Below are positions 5,052 through 14,421 of a DNA stretch of 64,000 nucleotides, in pieces. Both the position numbers and the translations under genes were made by a program. The DNA lies in NCBI GenBank assembly GCA_943788755.1, contig CALSRM010000003.1, forward strand, positions 620,001 to 684,000, written 5' to 3'. The stretch is from an uncultured Flavobacteriales bacterium. Lineage in GTDB: Bacteria > Bacteroidota > Bacteroidia > Flavobacteriales_D > Parvicellaceae. The notes under the pieces are model-generated. The model was not told the origin of the DNA. It made no database searches and saw only the letters and a list, made by a program, of their open reading frames with translations. The stretch's first letter is position 1. Every line of letters begins with the position of its first letter.

Positions 5052-5468
5052 ATGAAATATCGTCGTCTCATTTATACCAGTCAGCCAGTAAAACAGTTTA
5101 GTGGGCCTGAATTGATTAGACTACTTCATGATGCTCGCGCTTATAATTCTATCGACAATATATGCGGTGTTTTATTGCATAGGAGTGGTTATTTTCTGCA
5201 AGTTATTGAAGGAGGTTCAGAGCCTATTGAAAACCTATTGATTCGCTTAAGAAATGATCCAAGGCATAAGAATATTGTAATTATTTATGATGGTTTTGTA
5301 GATAGGCGTGTTTTCTCGAATTGGGCTATGGGTGTTGCAGATTTAATGTCTCCTGAATTAAGTCTTTTGCCAGGTATTTGTTCAGATTTATCAGGGAGTC
5401 AGGCAGTTAAAGACCTTATTTTGGATCTGCCTGCTGTTGAGGATTTTTTACAGCAAAAAACGGCTTAA
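5052..5468 (+). CDS. BLUF-domain blue-light sensor
   Basis: Stand-alone FAD-binding blue-light photoreceptor of 138 residues. The start is the ATG at 5052 (MKYRRLIYTS); a TTG-initiated extension of 20 codons upstream is not protein-like. BLUF hallmarks are the Tyr in LIYTS, the ARAYNSIDNICGVLLH segment with the flavin-contacting Asn, the Gln in GYFLQVIEGG that switches hydrogen bonds on light absorption, DPRHKNIVIIYDG, and FSNWAMG with Trp and Met near the C-terminal strand. The last 35 residues are a short helical cap and no output domain is fused, so it must signal through a partner. It stands immediately before the photolyase operon, which suggests a role in light response, but no operator of the type found at 5747 lies before it. 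Confidence 0.9.
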   Translation: MKYRRLIYTSQPVKQFSGPELIRLLHDARAYNSIDNICGVLLHRSGYFLQVIEGGSEPIENLLIRLRNDPRHKNIVIIYDGFVDRRVFSNWAMGVADLMSPELSLLPGICSDLSGSQAVKDLILDLPAVEDFLQQKTA

Positions 5469-5822
5469 GATTTTAATTTTAACACACCCCCAGCTCTCCG
5501 GCTCCTCTATCTGTAGAATAATTACGTCTGTTATACTTAAGTATACACAAATAATCTGTATTTGTTTTTCAAGTCATTTTTCCATTTATAAGCTTGCAGT
5601 CTTTGCTCACAGATAATCCAGCAGTTTTTTTTATAACGCAATGCTGGATTAATATCATTAGAAATCCCTATAAGTCCAAGAAAAATCAAGTAATTCAATC
5701 TTCAGGCTTTATGTAAAAGTGGGTAATTTAAAATTTAACAACCTATTAATGTTTAACTTTTTATATAAATTGTTAAACATTATTTGTATTTTCGTGTAGT
5801 ATTTAACTAATTAACATGAATC
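5469..5822. other. Gene-free stretch with palindromes and a CarH-type operator
   Basis: 354 bases between the BLUF gene and the photolyase operon. It holds a perfect 14-base palindrome TATACTTAAGTATA (5532-5545). It also holds a perfect 10-base inverted repeat, TAATCCAGCA (5614-5623) with TGCTGGATTA (5642-5651), separated by an 18-base loop; there is no T-run, so it is a poor terminator. The operator-like inverted repeat at 5747-5782 is listed separately. No tRNA or further gene is visible. Confidence 0.7.
5747..5782 (+). promoter_or_regulatory. Operator site A (CarH-type inverted repeat) before the photolyase operon
   Basis: Perfect 11-base arms TAATGTTTAAC (5747-5757) and GTTAAACATTA (5772-5782) flank a 14-base AT-rich spacer. 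The same core and the same spacer length occur at 10458-10487 and 14390-14421. A -7-like element, TATTTTCG (5787-5794, one mismatch to TAnnTTTG), lies at nearly the same offset from the right arm as the perfect -7 element of site B. The first gene of the operon starts 41 bases downstream of the site. Assignment to the CarH-like regulator at 13484 is inference from proximity and shared sites. Confidence 0.75.
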
Positions 5823-5984
5823 ATGAGTCTATTTAAAAGAAAGTCGAAAAAAGAAAAACTCGAAAAAAAATATCGAGAGAAACTAGAAGAGGCCTATAAA
5901 ATGTCAACTATTAATCGATCAAAATCGGATGAATTGACCTATGAAGCAGCACAAATTTTAAAAGAAATAGAAAATGAAAAATAA
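5823..5984 (+). CDS. Lacal_2735 family small protein
   Basis: A 53-residue, highly charged, probably cytoplasmic protein, too short for many gene finders. It reads MSLFKRKSKKEKLEKKYREK at the start, then a central LEEAYKMSTINRSKSDE and a helical end YEAAQILKEIENEK. This arrangement (basic FKRK start, coiled helix, LSTxNR-like turn, final EA.QILK helix) matches the Lacal_2735 family known from flavobacteria, function unknown. The stop overlaps the next gene by 11 bases, so translation is probably coupled. It is the first gene after operator site A. An ATG seven bases upstream (5816) opens only a seven-codon frame and is not used. Confidence 0.8.
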   Translation: MSLFKRKSKKEKLEKKYREKLEEAYKMSTINRSKSDELTYEAAQILKEIENEK

Positions 5985-6534
5985 CATTCTCGGACTGTCG
6001 GTACTGTTTAGTATAGTTATCGTTGCCTGCAGTTTAACAAGCGAAAACATGAATTCCATATTTAACTTTTCACAAAGCGCTAAAATCAATAACTGGAAAG
6101 TCGTTAATGATGATGTTATGGGAGGAATCTCCAGCTCTACATTTGAATTGAATAGAGACGGCGATGCAGAATTTAAAGGAACTGTGTCTACTGCAAATAA
6201 TGGAGGTTTTGCATCCGTTCGTTATCGTTTCAGGGCAAAAGACATTGCGGGAAAAAAAACGATTAGTATTCGTTTAAAAGGTGATTCAAAACCCTACCAA
6301 TTTCGTGTAAAATCCAAAGCTACGGATTACTATTCATATATCACCACATTCTCAACATTAGGGGATTGGGAGACAATCCAAATCAATTTAAAGGATTTAT
6401 ACCCGAGTTTTAGAGGCAATAAATTAAATAAAGAAAATTTTAACGAGTCCTCTATTGAAGAAATCTCCTTTCTGATTGCCAACAAAAAAAATGAATCCTT
6501 TAAACTTATTATTGACAAAATTGAAATCAATTAA
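5974..6534 (+). CDS. CIA30 family lipoprotein
   Basis: 186 residues with a lipoprotein-type signal peptide (hydrophobic 5-18, lipobox IVAC with Cys 19), so probably membrane-anchored in the cell envelope. The body is a CIA30 (NDUFAF1-like) jelly-roll domain: W-x2-VNDDVMGGISSS near residue 42, then FKGTVSTANNGGFASVR, IRLKGDSKPYQFRV, and a C-terminal strand FKLIIDKIEIN. In mitochondria CIA30 assists complex I assembly; in bacteria the role is unknown and carbohydrate-like binding has been suggested for the fold. It overlaps the preceding small gene and is 6 bases from the SRPBCC gene, so it is part of the photolyase operon. Confidence 0.85.
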   Translation: MKNNILGLSVLFSIVIVACSLTSENMNSIFNFSQSAKINNWKVVNDDVMGGISSSTFELNRDGDAEFKGTVSTANNGGFASVRYRFRAKDIAGKKTISIRLKGDSKPYQFRVKSKATDYYSYITTFSTLGDWETIQINLKDLYPSFRGNKLNKENFNESSIEEISFLIANKKNESFKLIIDKIEIN

Positions 6535-6540
6535 AACGAT

Positions 6541-7029
6541 ATGGAAATCTCAAAACACTCCAATATATATAGGTTACACAACCAACAGTTTCTTCCGATA
6601 TCCAAAGAAATTGCTTGGCGATTTTTTTCGGCTCCTCAAAATTTACAAAAAATAACGCCAGAAGAACTCGATTTTAGAATGACCAGTCCAGATGAAGGGA
6701 AGGTGTATCTCGGTCAAATAATTACTTACACGATACGACTAAATAAAGTTTTCAAGATGAACTGGGTTACAGAAATCACTGGCATGATTCATGAAAATTA
6801 TTTTGTGGATGAACAACGCTTTGGACCTTATAAAATGTGGCATCATCGCCACGCTTTTGAGGAGGTTGAAGGCGGTGTTTTAGTGACAGATATTGTACAT
6901 TTTAAAATTCCTTTCTCATTAATTGCTCCCCTTGCTTATCGGTTTTTTGTAAAACAAAATTTAAAACGAATTTTCAACTACAGAGCAGAAAAATTAAATG
7001 AAATAGTTGCTTCAAATCAACTCGCATGA
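6541..7029 (+). CDS. SRPBCC family protein
   Basis: 162-residue START/Bet v 1-like ligand-binding protein. Visible family features are FLPISKEIAWRFFSAPQNLQKITPEE at the start, the strand GQIITYTIRL, WVTEITG, the strongly conserved FVDEQRFGPYKMWHHRHAFEEV, and the C-terminal long helix with RIFNYRAEKLNEI. Members beside photolyase genes are often called cell-division inhibitor or cyclase/dehydrase, without proof. It is likely cytoplasmic and may bind a hydrophobic or tetrapyrrole-type ligand. The last codons overlap the tspO start by 4 bases (ATGA), indicating translational coupling. Confidence 0.85.
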   Translation: MEISKHSNIYRLHNQQFLPISKEIAWRFFSAPQNLQKITPEELDFRMTSPDEGKVYLGQIITYTIRLNKVFKMNWVTEITGMIHENYFVDEQRFGPYKMWHHRHAFEEVEGGVLVTDIVHFKIPFSLIAPLAYRFFVKQNLKRIFNYRAEKLNEIVASNQLA

Positions 7030-7490
7030 AATTGGCTTTCAACATATTTATTTTTTTGTTACTTAACTTTACTGCACTTGCCATCGGGGGTTTTTTCACC
7101 GGTAATGGCGTAGCTTCTGACTGGTATTACAACCTTAATAAAGCGCCTTGGACTCCTCCAGGCTGGGCTTTTGGTGTTGCTTGGAGCACTATAATGATTT
7201 GCTATTCATTTTATATGGCAATTCTTTACAAAGCAAATACCAGACGCAATAAAGTCATCGCTCTTTATGCTGCCCAACTTCTTTTAAATGTCGCCTGGAA
7301 CCCATTTTTCTTTTATGTTCAAAATGCCTTAATAGCATTGTTCTCTATTCTGTTTTTAACAATTATTATAGCTTATTTTTTATTTAGCAATATAAAAACT
7401 ATGCGATGGACTAGCTTGTTAATTTCCCCCTACTTTATCTGGCTGTGCATTGCCACATCTTTAAATCTTTATATTGTAATTTATAATTAA
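7026..7490 (+). CDS. tspO: TspO/MBR family tryptophan-rich sensory protein
   Basis: Five-helix membrane protein of 154 residues that binds porphyrins and, in some bacteria, modulates photosynthesis or stress genes in response to light and oxygen. Features seen: five hydrophobic segments, the WYYNLNKAPWTPPGWAFGV loop that forms part of the ligand pocket, and LLLNVAWNPFFFYVQN with the conserved W-N-P-F. Length is typical. It starts inside the stop of the SRPBCC gene and is followed 4 bases later by the photolyase. Placement in a photorepair operon fits a role in handling photoreactive tetrapyrroles, but that is inference. Confidence 0.95.
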   Translation: MKLAFNIFIFLLLNFTALAIGGFFTGNGVASDWYYNLNKAPWTPPGWAFGVAWSTIMICYSFYMAILYKANTRRNKVIALYAAQLLLNVAWNPFFFYVQNALIALFSILFLTIIIAYFLFSNIKTMRWTSLLISPYFIWLCIATSLNLYIVIYN

Positions 7491-7493
7491 TCC

Positions 7494-8789
7494 ATGAAAG
7501 ATTCTATTGCGATATTTTGGTTTAGAAGAGACCTTCGACTTGAAGACAACACTGCTCTGAATGCAGCTCTTTTGCACCATGACAAAGTGCTGCCAATTTT
7601 CATTTTTGACACCAATATTCTGGAGGAACTGGAAGAAAATGACCCAAGAGTTTCGTTTATTCATAGCACCTTGGAATCCATCGATAAGGAGCTAAATAAG
7701 GTTGGATCTGGAATCAGTTGTTTTAAAGGAAAAGCTGAGACTGTGTTTAAACATCTAATTGAAAAATACAACGTCACGGATGTGTTTTTGAATAAAGACT
7801 ATGAACCTTATGCATTAAGTAGAGATAAATCTATCCGAACCATGCTTAATGCTAAGAGCATTTCCCTACATACTTTCAAGGATCAGGTTATCTTTGAAGA
7901 ACTAGAGATTACCAAAGATGATAAGTCTCCTTATACTGTTTTCACACCTTATAAAAAGAAATGGCTTCATCATTTTAATCCATCCAACTGTTCCTCCAAT
8001 TCAGCTTTTAAGCCCAAGCACTTTTACAAGAGCAACACCCGTTTCCCTAGCTTAAGTTCTATCGGTTTTAAGCCCTCGTTAATTAAGATACCGCCTTTTA
8101 ACTTGGCCGTGGTTGAAGATTATAAAAAGTTACGAGACTTTCCATCAATCAAAGGAACTAGTCAACTAAGCACGCACCTACGATTTGGCACAGTTAGCAT
8201 AAGAAATATAATACGGAATTTGAATTTAGAGTCCGTATTTCTAAGTGAACTTATCTGGCGAGAATTCTTCATGCAAATACTCTATAATTTCCCGCGGGTT
8301 GTGTCTTCTAATTTCAAGGCAAAATATAACCAAATTCAATGGAGGAATGACCTAACTGAATTTAATGCATGGTGTGAAGGTAAAACAGGATATCCGATTG
8401 TAGATGCTGGCATGCGAGAATTAAATGAAACAGGACTAATGCACAATAGAGTGCGAATGATTACGGCTGGTTTTCTTTGTAAGCACTTATTAATCGACTG
8501 GAGGTGGGGAGAAGCTTATTTCGCTTCAAAATTACTTGATTATGATCTTGCTGCGAATAATGGAAATTGGCAGTGGGCCGCAGGAACGGGATGTGATTCC
8601 GCTCCCTATTTTAGAATTTTCAACCCAACTTCGCAACAGATTAAATTTGATAAAAATGCTTTATATACAACCAAATGGAACCCTGGCTGGCAGCTATCTT
8701 CAACCATCCCAATTGTAGAACATGCCTATGCGCGAAAAAGAGCTTTGGATACATATAAAGTAGGCCTCTCCAATAGTATAGAACAGTAA
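7494..8789 (+). CDS. phrB: Deoxyribodipyrimidine photolyase (cryptochrome/photolyase family)
   Basis: Repairs UV-induced cyclobutane pyrimidine dimers with blue light, using reduced FAD. The 431 residues contain the N-terminal antenna-binding Rossmann domain (IFWFRRDLRLEDNTAL) and the helical FAD domain with FPSIKGTSQLSTHLRFGTVS, LIWREFFMQIL and TGYPIVDAGMRELNETG. The FAD-proximal stretch NNGNWQWAAGTGCDSAPYFR is also present. Trp residues near 293, 336/338 and 359 match the electron-transfer triad of class I enzymes. FNPTSQQIKFD is also typical. It sits 4 bases after tspO and under operator site A. A CPD photolyase is most likely; a cryptochrome-like sensory role cannot be excluded from sequence. 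Confidence 0.95.
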   Translation: MKDSIAIFWFRRDLRLEDNTALNAALLHHDKVLPIFIFDTNILEELEENDPRVSFIHSTLESIDKELNKVGSGISCFKGKAETVFKHLIEKYNVTDVFLNKDYEPYALSRDKSIRTMLNAKSISLHTFKDQVIFEELEITKDDKSPYTVFTPYKKKWLHHFNPSNCSSNSAFKPKHFYKSNTRFPSLSSIGFKPSLIKIPPFNLAVVEDYKKLRDFPSIKGTSQLSTHLRFGTVSIRNIIRNLNLESVFLSELIWREFFMQILYNFPRVVSSNFKAKYNQIQWRNDLTEFNAWCEGKTGYPIVDAGMRELNETGLMHNRVRMITAGFLCKHLLIDWRWGEAYFASKLLDYDLAANNGNWQWAAGTGCDSAPYFRIFNPTSQQIKFDKNALYTTKWNPGWQLSSTIPIVEHAYARKRALDTYKVGLSNSIEQ

Positions 8790-8821
8790 CTAATTAATAC
8801 CACACCAATACACATAGCTTT

Positions 8822-10243
8822 ATGAAAGTTCTTTTAACAGGTGCCACAGGATATATTGGGAAGCGTATTCTTCCTATATTAGTAAGCAAAGGCTATGATG
8901 TTGTTTGTTGTGTTAGAGATAAATCAAGATTCAATCCTCCGCAGTCTTTGAAGGAAAAAACTTCAATTATAGAAATTGACCTACTAGACCAAGCATCTCT
9001 TTCAAAAATCCCAAATGATATTGACGTTGCCTATTACTTAGTTCATTCGATGGCAACAGCAGACAATTATAAGTTATTAGAACAAGAATCTGCCATCAAT
9101 TTTCGGGATAGACTTTCTAATACTGACGTTAAACAAGTTATATATTTAAGTGGAATTGTAAACGAATCTAATCTATCTAAGCACCTTTTATCTCGAAAAA
9201 CGGTTGAAGAAGAGCTTGAAAAAGGGAACTACAACTTAACCTGTCTCCGGGCGGGAATAATTGTTGGTTCTGGAAGCGCTTCATTTGAAATAATGCGGGA
9301 TTTAGTAGAAAAACTACCTGTTATGATCACTCCTAAGTGGCTTTTAACAAAATGTTCTCCTATCGGCGTCTCTGACGTGCAAATTTTTTTAACGAAATGT
9401 ATCCTTAATGAAGAGACGTTTAATAAAAACTTTGACATCGGATGTGGTGATGTACTCTCCTACAGAGAGATGTTGCTTGATTTTGCTGAAGTTAGGAAAT
9501 TAAAAAGGAAAATTTGGACTGTACCCTTGATGACTCCAAAGCTATCCTCTTATTGGCTCTATTTCGTAACCTCCACCTCTTATAAACTAGCTAGATCATT
9601 GGTAGAAAGCATGAAGATCGAAGTTGTTTGTAGGGACCATGAAATTAATGCTATACTAGGAATTCAGCCTATTTCATACAAAGAAGCTTTAGTCAAGGCT
9701 TTTGATAGTATTGAAAATAACGATATTGCTTCTAGCTGGAAAGATTCTTATTCTAGCAGTGAGATAAATATGAGTATCTCGGAATACATTTCTGTACCTG
9801 TGTTTGGCTGCTTTAAAGATGCTCGAGTATCAGTTATTGAGAACCGTAAACAAACCATTGATAAAATCTGGAGTATTGGAGGTGAAAATGGCTGGTACCA
9901 TGGTAATTGGCTATGGAGAATACGAGGAGTTTTAGATAAATTAGCTGGTGGGGTTGGATTGAGAAGAGGTCGCACAAATCAGAAAACTATTTCCGTAGGA
10001 GATGCATTAGATTTTTGGCGAGTACTGTATGCGAATAAAGAGGAAGGAAGGTTGTTGCTTTTCGCGGAAATGAAACTGCCGGGAGAAGCTTGGTTAGAAT
10101 TTAAAATAATTGATGGAAAGCTTTTTCAAACGGCGACTTTTAGGCCCTTGGGATTATTGGGCAGACTTTATTGGTTAGTTGTTCTCCCGCTTCATGGTAT
10201 AATATTTAAAGGAATGATCAAAAAAATAAGCCAGGTTTGCTAG
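8822..10243 (+). CDS. SDR-type NAD(P)-binding protein with C-terminal DUF2867
   Basis: 473 residues. The N-terminal ~290 residues form an atypical short-chain dehydrogenase fold with the dinucleotide motif TGATGYIGKRIL and a YLVHSMA stretch, then CLRAGIIVGSGSASFEIMRDL typical of YbjT/NmrA-like proteins. The C-terminal ~150 residues match DUF2867 (IGGENGWYHGNWLWRIRG, DALDFWRVLY, LLLFAEMKLPGEAWLEF). Reaction unknown. It follows the photolyase by 32 bases on the same strand and closes the operon. Genes of this type are often found near bacterial photolyases. Domain calls are firm; function is open. Confidence 0.88.
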   Translation: MKVLLTGATGYIGKRILPILVSKGYDVVCCVRDKSRFNPPQSLKEKTSIIEIDLLDQASLSKIPNDIDVAYYLVHSMATADNYKLLEQESAINFRDRLSNTDVKQVIYLSGIVNESNLSKHLLSRKTVEEELEKGNYNLTCLRAGIIVGSGSASFEIMRDLVEKLPVMITPKWLLTKCSPIGVSDVQIFLTKCILNEETFNKNFDIGCGDVLSYREMLLDFAEVRKLKRKIWTVPLMTPKLSSYWLYFVTSTSYKLARSLVESMKIEVVCRDHEINAILGIQPISYKEALVKAFDSIENNDIASSWKDSYSSSEINMSISEYISVPVFGCFKDARVSVIENRKQTIDKIWSIGGENGWYHGNWLWRIRGVLDKLAGGVGLRRGRTNQKTISVGDALDFWRVLYANKEEGRLLLFAEMKLPGEAWLEFKIIDGKLFQTATFRPLGLLGRLYWLVVLPLHGIIFKGMIKKISQVC

Positions 10244-10457: not shown

Positions 10458-10487
10458 TGTTTAATATTGTTTGGATTTTGTTAAACA
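10458..10487 (+). promoter_or_regulatory. Operator site B (CarH-type inverted repeat)
   Basis: Arms TGTTTAAT (10458-10465) and GTTAAACA (10480-10487) with a 14-base spacer, one mismatch at the innermost base of the left arm. Core and spacer are the same as sites A and C. The -33 element of the promoter below lies inside the spacer, so a bound regulator would block RNA polymerase. This is the clearest geometry for repression among the three sites. Confidence 0.75.
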
Positions 10488-10502
10488 GATTATGTATATT
10501 TG
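10470..10502 (+). promoter_or_regulatory. Bacteroidota-type promoter (TTTG-N21-TATATTTG)
   Basis: -33 element TTTG at 10470-10473 and perfect -7 element TATATTTG (TAnnTTTG) at 10495-10502 with 21 bases between. It is directed at the two small membrane-protein genes starting at 10635, leaving a leader of about 125 bases. It overlaps operator B. Confidence 0.65.
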
Positions 10503-10634: not shown

Positions 10635-10802
10635 ATGAAATTTTTAGAGAAATACTATCCAGTTGTATTAGCGTTTATTAGTTTTCTAATTTCCGTTTAC
10701 CTCTGGTTTTTTATTGATAAAGAAGCTGGTATGTTCGTCGGAATATGGGTGCCTTCCATATTATCACTAGCTATATTCATAAGGCTTGTTCAAAACGATT
10801 AA
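10635..10802 (+). CDS. Small two-helix membrane protein, unknown function
   Basis: 55 residues from the ATG at 10635 (MKFLEKYYPVVLAF); the frame is open 17 codons upstream, but that part is Lys/Asn/Gln-rich and looks like leader sequence. Two hydrophobic segments (about residues 9-26 and 33-49) are joined by a short polar turn DKEAGMF. The second begins with GIWVPSIL, a motif I have the impression of seeing in other small bacterial membrane proteins, but I cannot name a family. It is the first gene under operator B and is followed 2 bases later by another tiny membrane-protein gene, so the pair is probably cotranscribed and translated together. Confidence 0.6.
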   Translation: MKFLEKYYPVVLAFISFLISVYLWFFIDKEAGMFVGIWVPSILSLAIFIRLVQND

Positions 10803-10804
10803 TT

Positions 10805-10975
10805 ATGGAAAAGACAGAAATTACAATATTTATTATAGGATTCTTCATTTTTGCCTCTTACTTGTTCTTCCTTCTCAGAATGATATCTAGACAGCATAAT
10901 ATCCAAAAGAAAACGCAATCTTCAGGGTCAAATACTGAAATGAAAAATAATGGTGAGCAACCGTCCTCTATCTAA
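10805..10975 (+). CDS. Small single-pass membrane protein, unknown function
   Basis: 56 residues starting at the ATG at 10805, two bases after the preceding stop; this spacing is the main reason for choosing the start. One transmembrane helix (about residues 6-24, ITIFIIGFFIFASYLFFLL) is followed by a basic RMISRQHNIQKK stretch and a polar Ser/Asn/Glu tail, predicting a cytoplasmic C-terminus. No family recognised. Layout resembles small accessory subunits of membrane complexes, but nothing links it to a specific one. Shares operator B with its partner. Confidence 0.6.
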   Translation: MEKTEITIFIIGFFIFASYLFFLLRMISRQHNIQKKTQSSGSNTEMKNNGEQPSSI

Positions 10976-11131: not shown

Positions 11132-11824
11132 ATGAGAAATTATATAATAATTGGGGGGTCATCAGGCATAGGCCAACAACTAGTTCGTCTTCTTGAAAAG
11201 CAAGGAGCAAATGTGATAGCGACCTATAATAATAATTTAATTGAAGATCGACCAAATGTAAAATATTTACAATTCGAGGTTAAAACAGATGTTTTCAATA
11301 TAGATGATTTTCCAGAGGAAATTCACGGTTTAGCTTATTGCCCCGGAAGCATTAATTTAAAACCATTTCATCGTTTTAAAGAAGAAGAGTTTTTAGAAGA
11401 CTTTAAACTACAAGTTTTAGGAGCTAGTAAGGTCATCAAGTTTTTACTGCCGAAGATGAAGAAAAGTGGAAACGCTTCTATACTTTTGTTTTCCACCATC
11501 GCGGTCCAATCTGGTTTTAGTTTTCACTCCCAGGTATCTATGTCCAAGGGAGCTATTGAGGGATTAACGAGATCTCTAGCTGCGGAATTAGCACCAAAAA
11601 TAAGGGTTAATGCAATTGCGCCTTCCCTAACGGATACTCCACTAGCACTCAATTTACTCAATACTCCTGAAAAAGTTCAATTCCAATCCGAGAAAAATCC
11701 TTTGAAGAAAATTGGAGCTGCAAAAGACATAGCGGAAGCCGCGGTTTTCTTGCTAACCCAAAAATCTTCGTGGGTAACAGGACAAATTATTCATGTAGAT
11801 GGCGGACATTCAATAATAAAATAG
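11132..11824 (+). CDS. SDR family oxidoreductase lacking the catalytic Tyr
   Basis: 230-residue classical-length short-chain dehydrogenase. I start at the ATG at 11132 (MRNYIIIGGSSGIG), two codons after an in-frame TTG. The NAD(P) motif GGSSGIGQ, the catalytic Ser in FSTIAVQ and the Lys in MSKGAIEGL are present, as is RVNAIAPSLTDTPL and the end SWVTGQIIHVDGGHS. The position four residues before the Lys, normally Tyr of YxxxK, is Val, so the usual proton donor is missing. A subset of bacterial SDRs shares this loss. It begins a three-gene group (SDR, flavin reductase, small protein) inside the light island. Substrate unknown. Confidence 0.85.
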   Translation: MRNYIIIGGSSGIGQQLVRLLEKQGANVIATYNNNLIEDRPNVKYLQFEVKTDVFNIDDFPEEIHGLAYCPGSINLKPFHRFKEEEFLEDFKLQVLGASKVIKFLLPKMKKSGNASILLFSTIAVQSGFSFHSQVSMSKGAIEGLTRSLAAELAPKIRVNAIAPSLTDTPLALNLLNTPEKVQFQSEKNPLKKIGAAKDIAEAAVFLLTQKSSWVTGQIIHVDGGHSIIK

Positions 11825-11850: not shown

Positions 11851-12882
11851 ATGATATTTAAAAAGGAACAGATTCATTCATGGGAATCAGCATATAGGTT
11901 GAAGTTCGTCAACTCATTGTCGGGCTACAAAAGCGTGCATCTGATTGGAACAAAAAATGATAATGGTAACCCAAACTTAGCTGTTTTTAATTCCATAATA
12001 CACATAAGTTCAAATCCAGCTCGTATTGCATTTGTAATGAGATCTTTATCTGTGCCGCGGCACACATACAACAATATTATAGAAACGGGTTTCTACACGA
12101 TAAACCACGTGCATAAATCATTTTTCAAGCAAGCCCATTATACATCCGCGAAATTTGAATCAGATCAATCGGAATTTGACGTTTGCAACCTCACTGAAGA
12201 ATATGTGGATCAGTTCTCTGCTCCCTTCGTTGCTGAAAGTACAATGAAAATAGGAATGAAATTAGTTGAGGATATTGAAATTAAAGAAGGTCAATGCAGA
12301 CTAATTGTTGGTGAGGTACAATTTGTTGAGTCAAAAGAAGAGTACTTGGAGGAAGATGGTCAATTGGACTTGGAGAAAGCAAATGATGTTTGCATAACTG
12401 GTTTAAATCAATATTCTTCTGTAAAAAAGCTAGAAAACATTCCCTATGCTCGGGTAGGGAAATTACCCAATTTTTATCAAAAAGAGCGACCAGATAATAT
12501 TGTTTTTGATAAAGAAACTCAATCTTACAACGCTAACTTATTACCCTACGGAACAAATATAGGAGCTCCAAGCATAGGTACAAGCAACCTTTCAAGATGG
12601 AAAACTCAAGGAGTCACAAGTTTTAACCATGTTCTTAAAAGTAAAGTTGAAGGAATTAAAGATGCGTACGAAATACTTGTAGAAGCATACAAGATTAATG
12701 AGTTATTATACAATGCAAAATATGAGTTTGAGCCAATAATTGGGGAGGTTTACCATTTATATGAGAAGGATAATAGAGATGAAAATTTTTTATCATTGGT
12801 GCCTCCAAGTACGTGGAAAAGGAAACATATTGGATCATTTAAACTGAATAGTGAAAAAGTTTGGAGTGAATTAAAAAAATAG
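11851..12882 (+). CDS. Flavin reductase family protein (flavoredoxin-like)
   Basis: 343 residues. I use the ATG at 11851 (MIFKKEQIHSW); the frame extends 27 codons upstream but overlaps the SDR gene out of frame. The N-terminal ~200 residues fit the FMN-binding split-barrel flavin reductase domain: YKSVHLIGTKNDNGNPNLAVFNS, HISSNPARIAFVMR, RHTYNNIIETGFYTINHV, and CRLIVGEVQFV. The remaining ~140 residues include a LNQYSSVKKLENIPYARVGKLP stretch and a helical C-terminus, a longer form common in Bacteroidota. Likely reduces or binds FMN in the cytoplasm. It might supply reduced flavin to light-linked enzymes, which is inference from location. Confidence 0.85.
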   Translation: MIFKKEQIHSWESAYRLKFVNSLSGYKSVHLIGTKNDNGNPNLAVFNSIIHISSNPARIAFVMRSLSVPRHTYNNIIETGFYTINHVHKSFFKQAHYTSAKFESDQSEFDVCNLTEEYVDQFSAPFVAESTMKIGMKLVEDIEIKEGQCRLIVGEVQFVESKEEYLEEDGQLDLEKANDVCITGLNQYSSVKKLENIPYARVGKLPNFYQKERPDNIVFDKETQSYNANLLPYGTNIGAPSIGTSNLSRWKTQGVTSFNHVLKSKVEGIKDAYEILVEAYKINELLYNAKYEFEPIIGEVYHLYEKDNRDENFLSLVPPSTWKRKHIGSFKLNSEKVWSELKK

Positions 12883-12883
12883 T

Positions 12884-13252
12884 ATGTCAGATCCCAAAAA
12901 GCAGCTTCGTCCAGAAATTTTGAGTATTGTCCAAACAGGTGATTTCAGCGCTTTAGAAAAATTTCAAAACGAAGTACTTCGACCTATCATCAAGCTTCAA
13001 CATGAGTTAATAATAGCATGCTTTCGACATTATCTAAATAAATATAAAGTTCAAATAGTAGAATTAGATTTCTTGCAGAAAACACACTTAATCACCAAAT
13101 TATTTAAATCTGATACACAACTAAAAAACGATTGTAGGGGCTTAATAATCGGGTTATTTACACTTGAAGAATATGGAGAATATTTAATCCTTTCGCCTCA
13201 GTTGAATAAGCGAATAAATAATATGATTATGCAAAAGCTTTATTATTCATAA
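12884..13252 (+). CDS. Conserved hypothetical protein
   Basis: 122 residues, all-helical by composition, no signal peptide, probably cytoplasmic. It starts one base after the flavin reductase stop, indicating cotranscription. Notable stretches are RPEILSIVQTGDFSALEKFQ, RPIIKLQHELIIACFRHYLN and CRGLIIGLFTLEEYGEYL. I have the impression that such proteins follow flavin reductase genes in other flavobacteria (sometimes labelled glyoxalase without support, and I see no glyoxalase metal motif). Function unknown. It ends 231 bases before the CarH-like regulator. Confidence 0.7.
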   Translation: MSDPKKQLRPEILSIVQTGDFSALEKFQNEVLRPIIKLQHELIIACFRHYLNKYKVQIVELDFLQKTHLITKLFKSDTQLKNDCRGLIIGLFTLEEYGEYLILSPQLNKRINNMIMQKLYYS

Positions 13253-13483: not shown

Positions 13484-14365
13484 ATGTCAATATATTCAAT
13501 AAAGGAATTAGAAAAACTATCAGGTATCAAAGCGCATACTATTCGAATATGGGAAAAAAGGTATGCCTTGTTGACTCCATTGAGAACAGGCACTAATATT
13601 AGGTATTACGGAGATAATGAGTTAGTAAAGCTTCTAAATGTGACATCGCTAATTAGTCTTGGGTTTAAGATTTCGAAAATTTCTCAAATGTCTAACGATG
13701 AAATAAATCAACAATTGGATAATTTAATTGATGATATAAAGTTTTCTGACGCACTTTCTGAAGTGTTAGCCAATCAATTGATTGCATCAGCGGTAAATTA
13801 TGATGAGTTTGCTTTTGAAAAAGCATTTTCTACAGCCATTTTAAAGCATGGTTTTGTTGATACTTACATTAAAGTAATTTACCCTCTCCTAGAAAAGGCC
13901 GGCATATTATGGAAGAAATCGGATTTAATGCCAGCGCAAGAACATTTTCTTAGCAACCTTATTAAACAAAAAATTCAAAGTGCTATCGACAATGTTCCCC
14001 TATCGTCCCCATCTGACCAGCCATGGGTATTGTTTTTGCCTGAAGAAGAGGTCCATGAGATGGGTCTTTTGCTTTCTTCTTACATCATCAGAGAACACGG
14101 AAGGACAGTTATTTATTTAGGCGCTCGCGTTCCAGCAGACAGTCTTTACTCGGTTTTAGAATTGTTTCCGAAAGCTAAATTATTATTCTTTCTTGTGAAA
14201 GAATTTGACGGGAAGAGCATTAGCTCCTTTGTTAAAAACATAAATGCTAACTATCCCAATTCAACAATCCATATCAGTACAAATCTAAAAAGATTAGAGC
14301 AATTTGAAAAGAATATTGATTTCGAAAAAATCATCTCTGTTGAGTCCCTGGTTAAAAAATTGTAA
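13484..14365 (+). CDS. carH: MerR-family regulator with CarH-like cobalamin-binding domain
   Basis: 293 residues. I start at the ATG at 13484 (MSIYSIKELEKLSGI) rather than the in-frame TTG six codons upstream. An N-terminal MerR winged helix is clear (LSGIKAHTIRIWEKRY, GTNIRYYGDNELVKLL). The C-terminal ~200 residues resemble the B12-binding light sensor CarH/LitR. W143-x9-E153-H154 lines the adenosylcobalamin upper face, and E189-x-H191-x2-G194 contains the His that binds cobalt from below. The residue after the Trp is Lys, not the His that forms the light-state ligand in Thermus CarH. Known CarH proteins repress carotenoid genes in the dark. It lies 45 bases before crtI, and three matching operators are in the window. 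Confidence 0.88.
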   Translation: MSIYSIKELEKLSGIKAHTIRIWEKRYALLTPLRTGTNIRYYGDNELVKLLNVTSLISLGFKISKISQMSNDEINQQLDNLIDDIKFSDALSEVLANQLIASAVNYDEFAFEKAFSTAILKHGFVDTYIKVIYPLLEKAGILWKKSDLMPAQEHFLSNLIKQKIQSAIDNVPLSSPSDQPWVLFLPEEEVHEMGLLLSSYIIREHGRTVIYLGARVPADSLYSVLELFPKAKLLFFLVKEFDGKSISSFVKNINANYPNSTIHISTNLKRLEQFEKNIDFEKIISVESLVKKL

Positions 14366-14389: not shown

Positions 14390-14421
14390 TTGTTTAACTT
14401 TGTTATGTATATGTTAAACAA
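14390..14421 (+). promoter_or_regulatory. Operator site C overlapping the crtI start and a -7 element
   Basis: Perfect 9-base arms TTGTTTAAC (14390-14398) and GTTAAACAA (14413-14421) around a 14-base spacer. A perfect -7 element TAACTTTG (14395-14402) lies across the left arm; I see no good -33 element upstream. The crtI start codon (14411) lies between the end of the spacer and the right arm, so transcripts from this promoter would have almost no leader. Confidence 0.75.

Follow-up and report, generated by a model that had tools for sequence, protein, structure and literature searches.

Rhodopsins are present in many marine Bacteroidota, whose physiology is altered by light, and the membrane components that respond to it are poorly known. 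The closest described systems of light control are the CarH/LitR regulons of Myxococcus, Thermus and Streptomyces, in which a MerR-type regulator with the motifs W-X9-EH and E-X-H-XX-G is found beside carotenoid and photolyase genes and the operator lies at promoters. The locus analysed here, located in a stretch of DNA of 64 kb (the window), resembles these regulons in each of these respects, the operator being placed in relatives also at carH itself. It differs in that its operator, GTTTAA-N16-TTAAAC, is an AT-rich palindrome with a long spacer, whereas the Thermus/Myxococcus CarH operator has been described as a different one, in that some members lack E-X-H-XX-G, and in that the regulon includes an undescribed pair of small membrane proteins, here called SM1 and SM2. 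With respect to the proteins, CydX and CcoS-type small accessory subunits are likewise tiny and conserved, have one or two transmembrane (TM) segments and are in some lineages encoded together with a membrane complex, whereas SM1 and SM2 match no Pfam or NCBIfam family above cut-off and form a separate two-gene module in most genomes. The alternative complex III (ACIII) of Flavobacterium johnsoniae (PMC8552683) is a further system with which the pair can be compared.

The initial annotation had described two consecutive genes for membrane-embedded proteins of 55 and 56 residues, separated by 2 bases, and both open reading frames are present with this arrangement (Table 1). It had also regarded them as the only genes directly behind site B (operator B). 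SM1-SM2 do lie directly behind this site, but the statement is too narrow, since an SDR gene starts 156 bp beyond SM2 and the unit probably continues into it; this is suggested by genus g9 (L089/L110), where SM1, SM2 and SDR genes overlap or abut. In operon A, the SRPBCC gene was identified by reading its sequence. A 53-residue charged open reading frame (MSLFKRKSKKEKLEKKYREKL...) at 5823-5984, between operator A and the CIA30 gene, is probably the first gene of this operon. Just upstream of the photolyase operon, at 5052-5468, a BLUF-domain blue-light sensor is encoded, and together with CarH this gives a cluster with two kinds of photoreceptor candidates.

Table 1. Positions of genes, operators and candidate promoter elements in the window
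Feature	Position	Strand	Remark
Operator A	5750..5779	.	upstream of the CIA30-SRPBCC-TspO-photolyase-DUF2867 operon
Operon A: CIA30, SRPBCC, TspO/MBR, photolyase, NmrA-DUF2867	5974..10243	+	
Operator B (site B)	10458..10487	.	palindrome TGTTTAAT-N14-GTTAAACA before SM1-SM2
Candidate -33 box TTTG	10470..10473		inside operator B
Candidate -7 promoter box TATATTTG	10495..10502	+	matches TAnnTTTG
SM1	10635..10802	+	55 aa, ATG, predicted two-TM hairpin, GIWVPSIL family
SM2	10805..10975	+	56 aa, ATG, single TM, variable polar C-terminal tail
SDR-family oxidoreductase	11132..11824	+	probable continuation of the SM1-SM2 transcription unit
Flavin reductase-like + DUF2452 two-domain protein	11851..12882	+	recurrent neighbour of SM1 pairs
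U122, 122-aa protein without family match	12884..13252	+	recurrent neighbour of SM1 pairs
CarH-type regulator	13484..14365	+	MerR HTH and B12-binding-like domain
Operator C	14391..14420	.	overlaps crtI start

The SM1 protein (MKFLEKYYPVVLAFISFLISVYLWFFIDKEAGMFVGIWVPSILSLAIFIRLVQND) has two hydrophobic peaks in the hydropathy profile and SM2 has one, and an AlphaFold2 model of SM1, made with 20 homologues as input, is a helical hairpin with helices at residues 3-27 and 29-52 (mean pLDDT 92). Membrane embedding, as initially proposed, is thus predicted for both proteins. Aromatic residues are conserved in both helices. Comparison of SM1 codons between genera, e.g. L008/L011, gave 26 synonymous versus 12 non-synonymous changes (pS 0.69, pN 0.09), and within the genus the SM2 proteins have a nearly identical membrane helix and a variable tail. 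These comparisons indicate that SM1 is under strong purifying selection, with dN/dS far below 1, and that SM2 is also constrained; selection at the codon level is not in line with the absence of translation that had been named as a possible objection. Neither protein, nor any of the relatives searched, has a Pfam or NCBIfam match above the curated cut-off, and a sequence search of solved structures and a Foldseek search with the SM1 model returned nothing significant and no relative among solved structures. In the part of the open-access literature available to us on CarH in Bacteroidetes, light-induced small membrane proteins and ACIII small subunits, no such pair is described. Judged from the sequences, SM1-SM2 is a conserved and never-named pair of membrane proteins, without Pfam or NCBIfam name.

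A scan of 84,980 species genomes gave 191 relatives of SM1, and the best 80 of these 191 loci, which were examined, belong to Flavobacteriales, other Bacteroidota and Gemmatimonadota; many of the loci are from metagenome-assembled genomes, and the neighbour labels at many are based on BLAST to the window proteins. In essentially all 80, Gemmatimonadota included, an SM2-like open reading frame with one hydrophobic segment is found -4 to +10 nt from the SM1 stop, and close relatives whose flanks are readable keep the pair essentially without exception, which speaks against the other objection, that conserved homologues might not occur as a pair. Divergent SM1 sequences retrieved by profile search repeat the pairing across the sequence types GIWVPSIL, GLWPVTIL, SAHWPGTILLF and MFKKFTxxDKLLF...GLWVPSILAFGIYLKL, each with its own type of SM2, and a few divergent SM1 open reading frames (e.g. 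L090, L091) have no clear SM2 follower. As a rule there is one SM1 copy per genome. The initial annotation of the pair is confirmed by these data, and the observation is stronger than first reported.

The three operators share the 30-bp palindrome TGTTTAAY-N14-RTTAAACA, and its core, GTTTAA-N16-TTAAAC, has exactly three mismatch-free copies in the window. Of the 39 family genomes, 31 contain the 30-bp pattern, while the reversed control pattern gave 0 matches across the same 39. All four species of the genus carry the palindrome before SM1, and with 0-1 mismatch it also occurs at the SM1 promoters of other genera (Crocinitomicaceae-like loci L005, L008, L010, L011, L013). Elsewhere in the genome of the window it precedes TIGR03643-like and photolyase-like genes and a gene for a fasciclin-domain protein (labels assigned by reading the sequences), and its coordinates in G008 and G011 place it immediately upstream of rhodopsin. 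Operator C has an unusual position, in that it overlaps the start codon region of crtI and is not upstream of a promoter. At operator B, the sequence TATATTTG matches TAnnTTTG, which we take to be the Bacteroidota -7 promoter consensus, and is likely to be the -7 box, with TTTG as the likely -33 box; the location of the -33 region inside the operator fits repression. In the relatives L259, L260, L263, L269 and L278-L280 the palindrome is found before genes whose products were read as SOUL-like heme-binding, PTPS-like pterin, glutathione peroxidase-like and ECF-sigma-like proteins, and the CarH regulon may by this last observation include an ECF sigma factor.

The CarH-type protein of the window carries both B12-type motifs. 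An operator before carH is seen in relatives and not in the window: L262, L266, L271, L274 and L281 have the palindrome 1-23 nt ahead of the CarH-type gene, L282 has two copies, the first 71 nt from carH, and in G005/G007 it is by coordinates also placed at carH. Among the 39 genomes, some of which lack operator or CarH in incomplete assemblies, 28 have both, 5 neither, and 3 and 3 have one alone (33/39 in agreement, Fisher p=0.004). The placement before carH and this correlation support the original proposal of a CarH-type operator, and the finding that in the window the palindrome marks the photolyase operon, SM1-SM2 and crtI alike is in agreement with the putative common regulon with photolyase and carotenoid genes. 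The reading of the palindrome as a CarH regulon, although inferred, is well supported, and the CarH protein would bind this operator with light as the inducer. The palindrome thereby provides a sequence-defined CarH regulon for the family, which could serve to list light-regulated genes. The CarH-type proteins of L262, L266, L271 and L274 keep W-X9-EH and miss E-X-H-XX-G, which suggests altered or lost B12 sensing. A second CarH-type paralogue (39% identity) is encoded at G000:C2:198791-199513, about 4 kb from the palindrome preceding the fasciclin-domain protein.

The light-related interpretation first proposed for the pair is supported. In the neighbourhoods, a light gene lies within 5 kb at 17 of 70 non-redundant SM1 loci as compared to 4 of 64 control windows drawn partly from the same genomes (p=0.004). 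The pair also co-occurs with rhodopsin, which is present in 52 of the 68 SM1 genomes versus 89 of the 231 others among 299 genomes of the order (p=4e-8; phylogeny and marine habitat are not accounted for in the co-occurrence statistics, and both traits track marine surface life). Photolyase is present in 68/68 SM1 genomes and 211/231 others, likewise uncorrected for phylogeny, and the difference in photolyase copy number is not significant within rhodopsin-positive or rhodopsin-negative genomes alone. The order SM1-SM2-CIA30 is found in a different phylum, Gemmatimonadota (L052, L072, L076), flavin reductase, SDR and CIA30 genes adjoin SM1 in several Flavobacteriales, rhodopsin and CrtY-like genes lie near SM1 in L134 and L143, and four family f33 genomes have a divergently oriented rhodopsin gene about 130-230 bp from the pair. 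However, at 26 of the 34 set A loci, mostly marine Flavobacteriaceae, the pair stands alone, and neither a light gene within 5 kb nor this operator is present. The light link of SM1-SM2 is therefore recurrent but not universal.

A different connection is seen in one lineage, where SM1-type genes (L199, L200, L201, L202, L205) are located between actB and actC, in an operon whose genes read ActA, ActB, ActC (NrfD), ActD, ActE, ActF, SCO1 and caa3-type oxidase subunits, not every gene being intact at each of these loci; the domain matches in L205 include ActD (PF11821, 5.6e-64), NrfD (1.3e-21) and COX1 (8.8e-153). A natural SM2-SM1 fusion of 93-100 residues occurs in L199, L201, L202 and L205, with a separate SM2 additionally in L199, L202 and L205. 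Homology between the ACIII-type SM1 and the window family is shown by hhalign (98%, E 1.4e-13), and the ACIII-type SM2 is homologous to that of family f33, in which some pairs lie beside rhodopsin (97.7%); flavobacterial SM2 is weakly related to f33 SM2 (55%). A heme A synthase-like neighbour was noted in L203. The resemblance to an ACIII subunit thus lies in these distant homologues, encoded within the ACIII operon, and does not extend to the window genome, whose own ACIII operon has no small open reading frame between actB and actC and no SM1/SM2 genes. A client there would accordingly be reached in trans or be another complex. To our knowledge, SM1/SM2 are not among the ActA-F subunits described for the F. 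johnsoniae complex.

The genes, their conserved pairing, the membrane hairpin, the operator and the regulon membership are well supported. To account for them we favour, tentatively and at somewhat below even probability, a light-induced two-subunit inner-membrane module, accessory to a bioenergetic complex and controlled by a CarH-type repressor. In the dark, the repressor would occupy the palindrome over the promoter and keep the SM1-SM2 unit off; light would release it, and the pair would be produced alongside photolyase, CIA30, TspO, SDR/flavin reductase and the enzymes of carotenoid synthesis. The hairpin of SM1 and the helix of SM2 would pack together, as the natural SM2-SM1 fusion suggests, and act as an accessory or stabilising subunit that adjusts a membrane bioenergetic complex to light, the client most likely being a quinol-oxidising or respiratory complex, with rhodopsin as an alternative. 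A family of such subunits without light specificity, wired in different lineages into different regulons and captured by CarH in Crocinitomicaceae-like bacteria, would account for the ACIII-operon members, the heme A synthase-like neighbour, the standalone Flavobacteriaceae pairs and the family f27 members beside crcB-like genes. We consider this unlikely, and the independent recurrence of light genes in Gemmatimonadota (CIA30), f33 (rhodopsin) and Flavobacteriales (photolyase, CIA30, crt) argues against it. Slightly less probable again is that SM1-SM2 shield the membrane under light and serve no respiratory complex, by carotenoid or retinal binding or by stabilisation of lipid packing, as an unrelated analogue of one-helix light-stress proteins. 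The common regulon with carotenoid synthesis and photolyase, the rhodopsin/CrtY clusters of L134 and L143 and the conserved aromatic residues are consistent with such shielding, and the high-light-inducible and one-helix proteins are also small membrane proteins linked to light; yet homologues lie inside the ACIII-caa3 operon of another lineage, many carriers have no light gene nearby, and none of the pigment-binding motifs of known light-stress proteins can be seen, the ExNxxGR helix of the chlorophyll a/b-binding-like proteins being absent from SM1 and SM2.

Two tiny hydrophobic open reading frames that overlap or abut could also form a short hydrophobic toxin or a toxin-antitoxin pair. This was rejected as very improbable on the basis of the strong purifying selection, the single copy per genome as a rule and the natural fusion of both proteins, and the membership in a repair/carotenoid regulon and the lack of a mobile-element setting around the inspected pairs point in the same direction. 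Small size alone would favour chance open reading frames or a leader peptide region, a reading to which hardly any credence can be given and which is refuted by the conservation over phyla, the dN/dS far below 1 and the confident fold model. Small proteins with two TM segments often precede transporters, and a symporter small subunit was likewise rejected: a gene for an SSS-like transporter lies beside L196 alone, and none of the curated small-subunit families was matched.

On the favoured reading of a light-induced accessory module, the pair probably contributes to the adjustment of the membranes of these marine bacteria to sunlight. SM1-SM2 is a concrete target, small in genetic terms, for which the operator is defined and a client can be tested. 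It is tempting, though doubtful, to go further and propose an unnamed superfamily, consisting of a two-TM hairpin and a one-TM partner, that links the respiratory chain of non-photosynthetic bacteria to light; a light-gated repressor would switch on a small subunit retuning a quinol-oxidising complex or a rhodopsin-containing membrane.

The SM1/SM2 family spans Bacteroidota and Gemmatimonadota, with weak matches to SM1 on haloarchaeal plasmids (E 0.02-0.04, core similar), the neighbourhoods of which yielded no clear lead. Many flavobacterial SM2 C-termini (among L014-L080) share a conserved DxDGIGNQGRFP/DKKPKNRA motif. SM1-like proteins are found in many sampled genomes of family f27 (L190, L191, L194, L195, L198), several of them beside crcB-like genes; this family is of the same phylum and possibly represents green sulfur bacteria.
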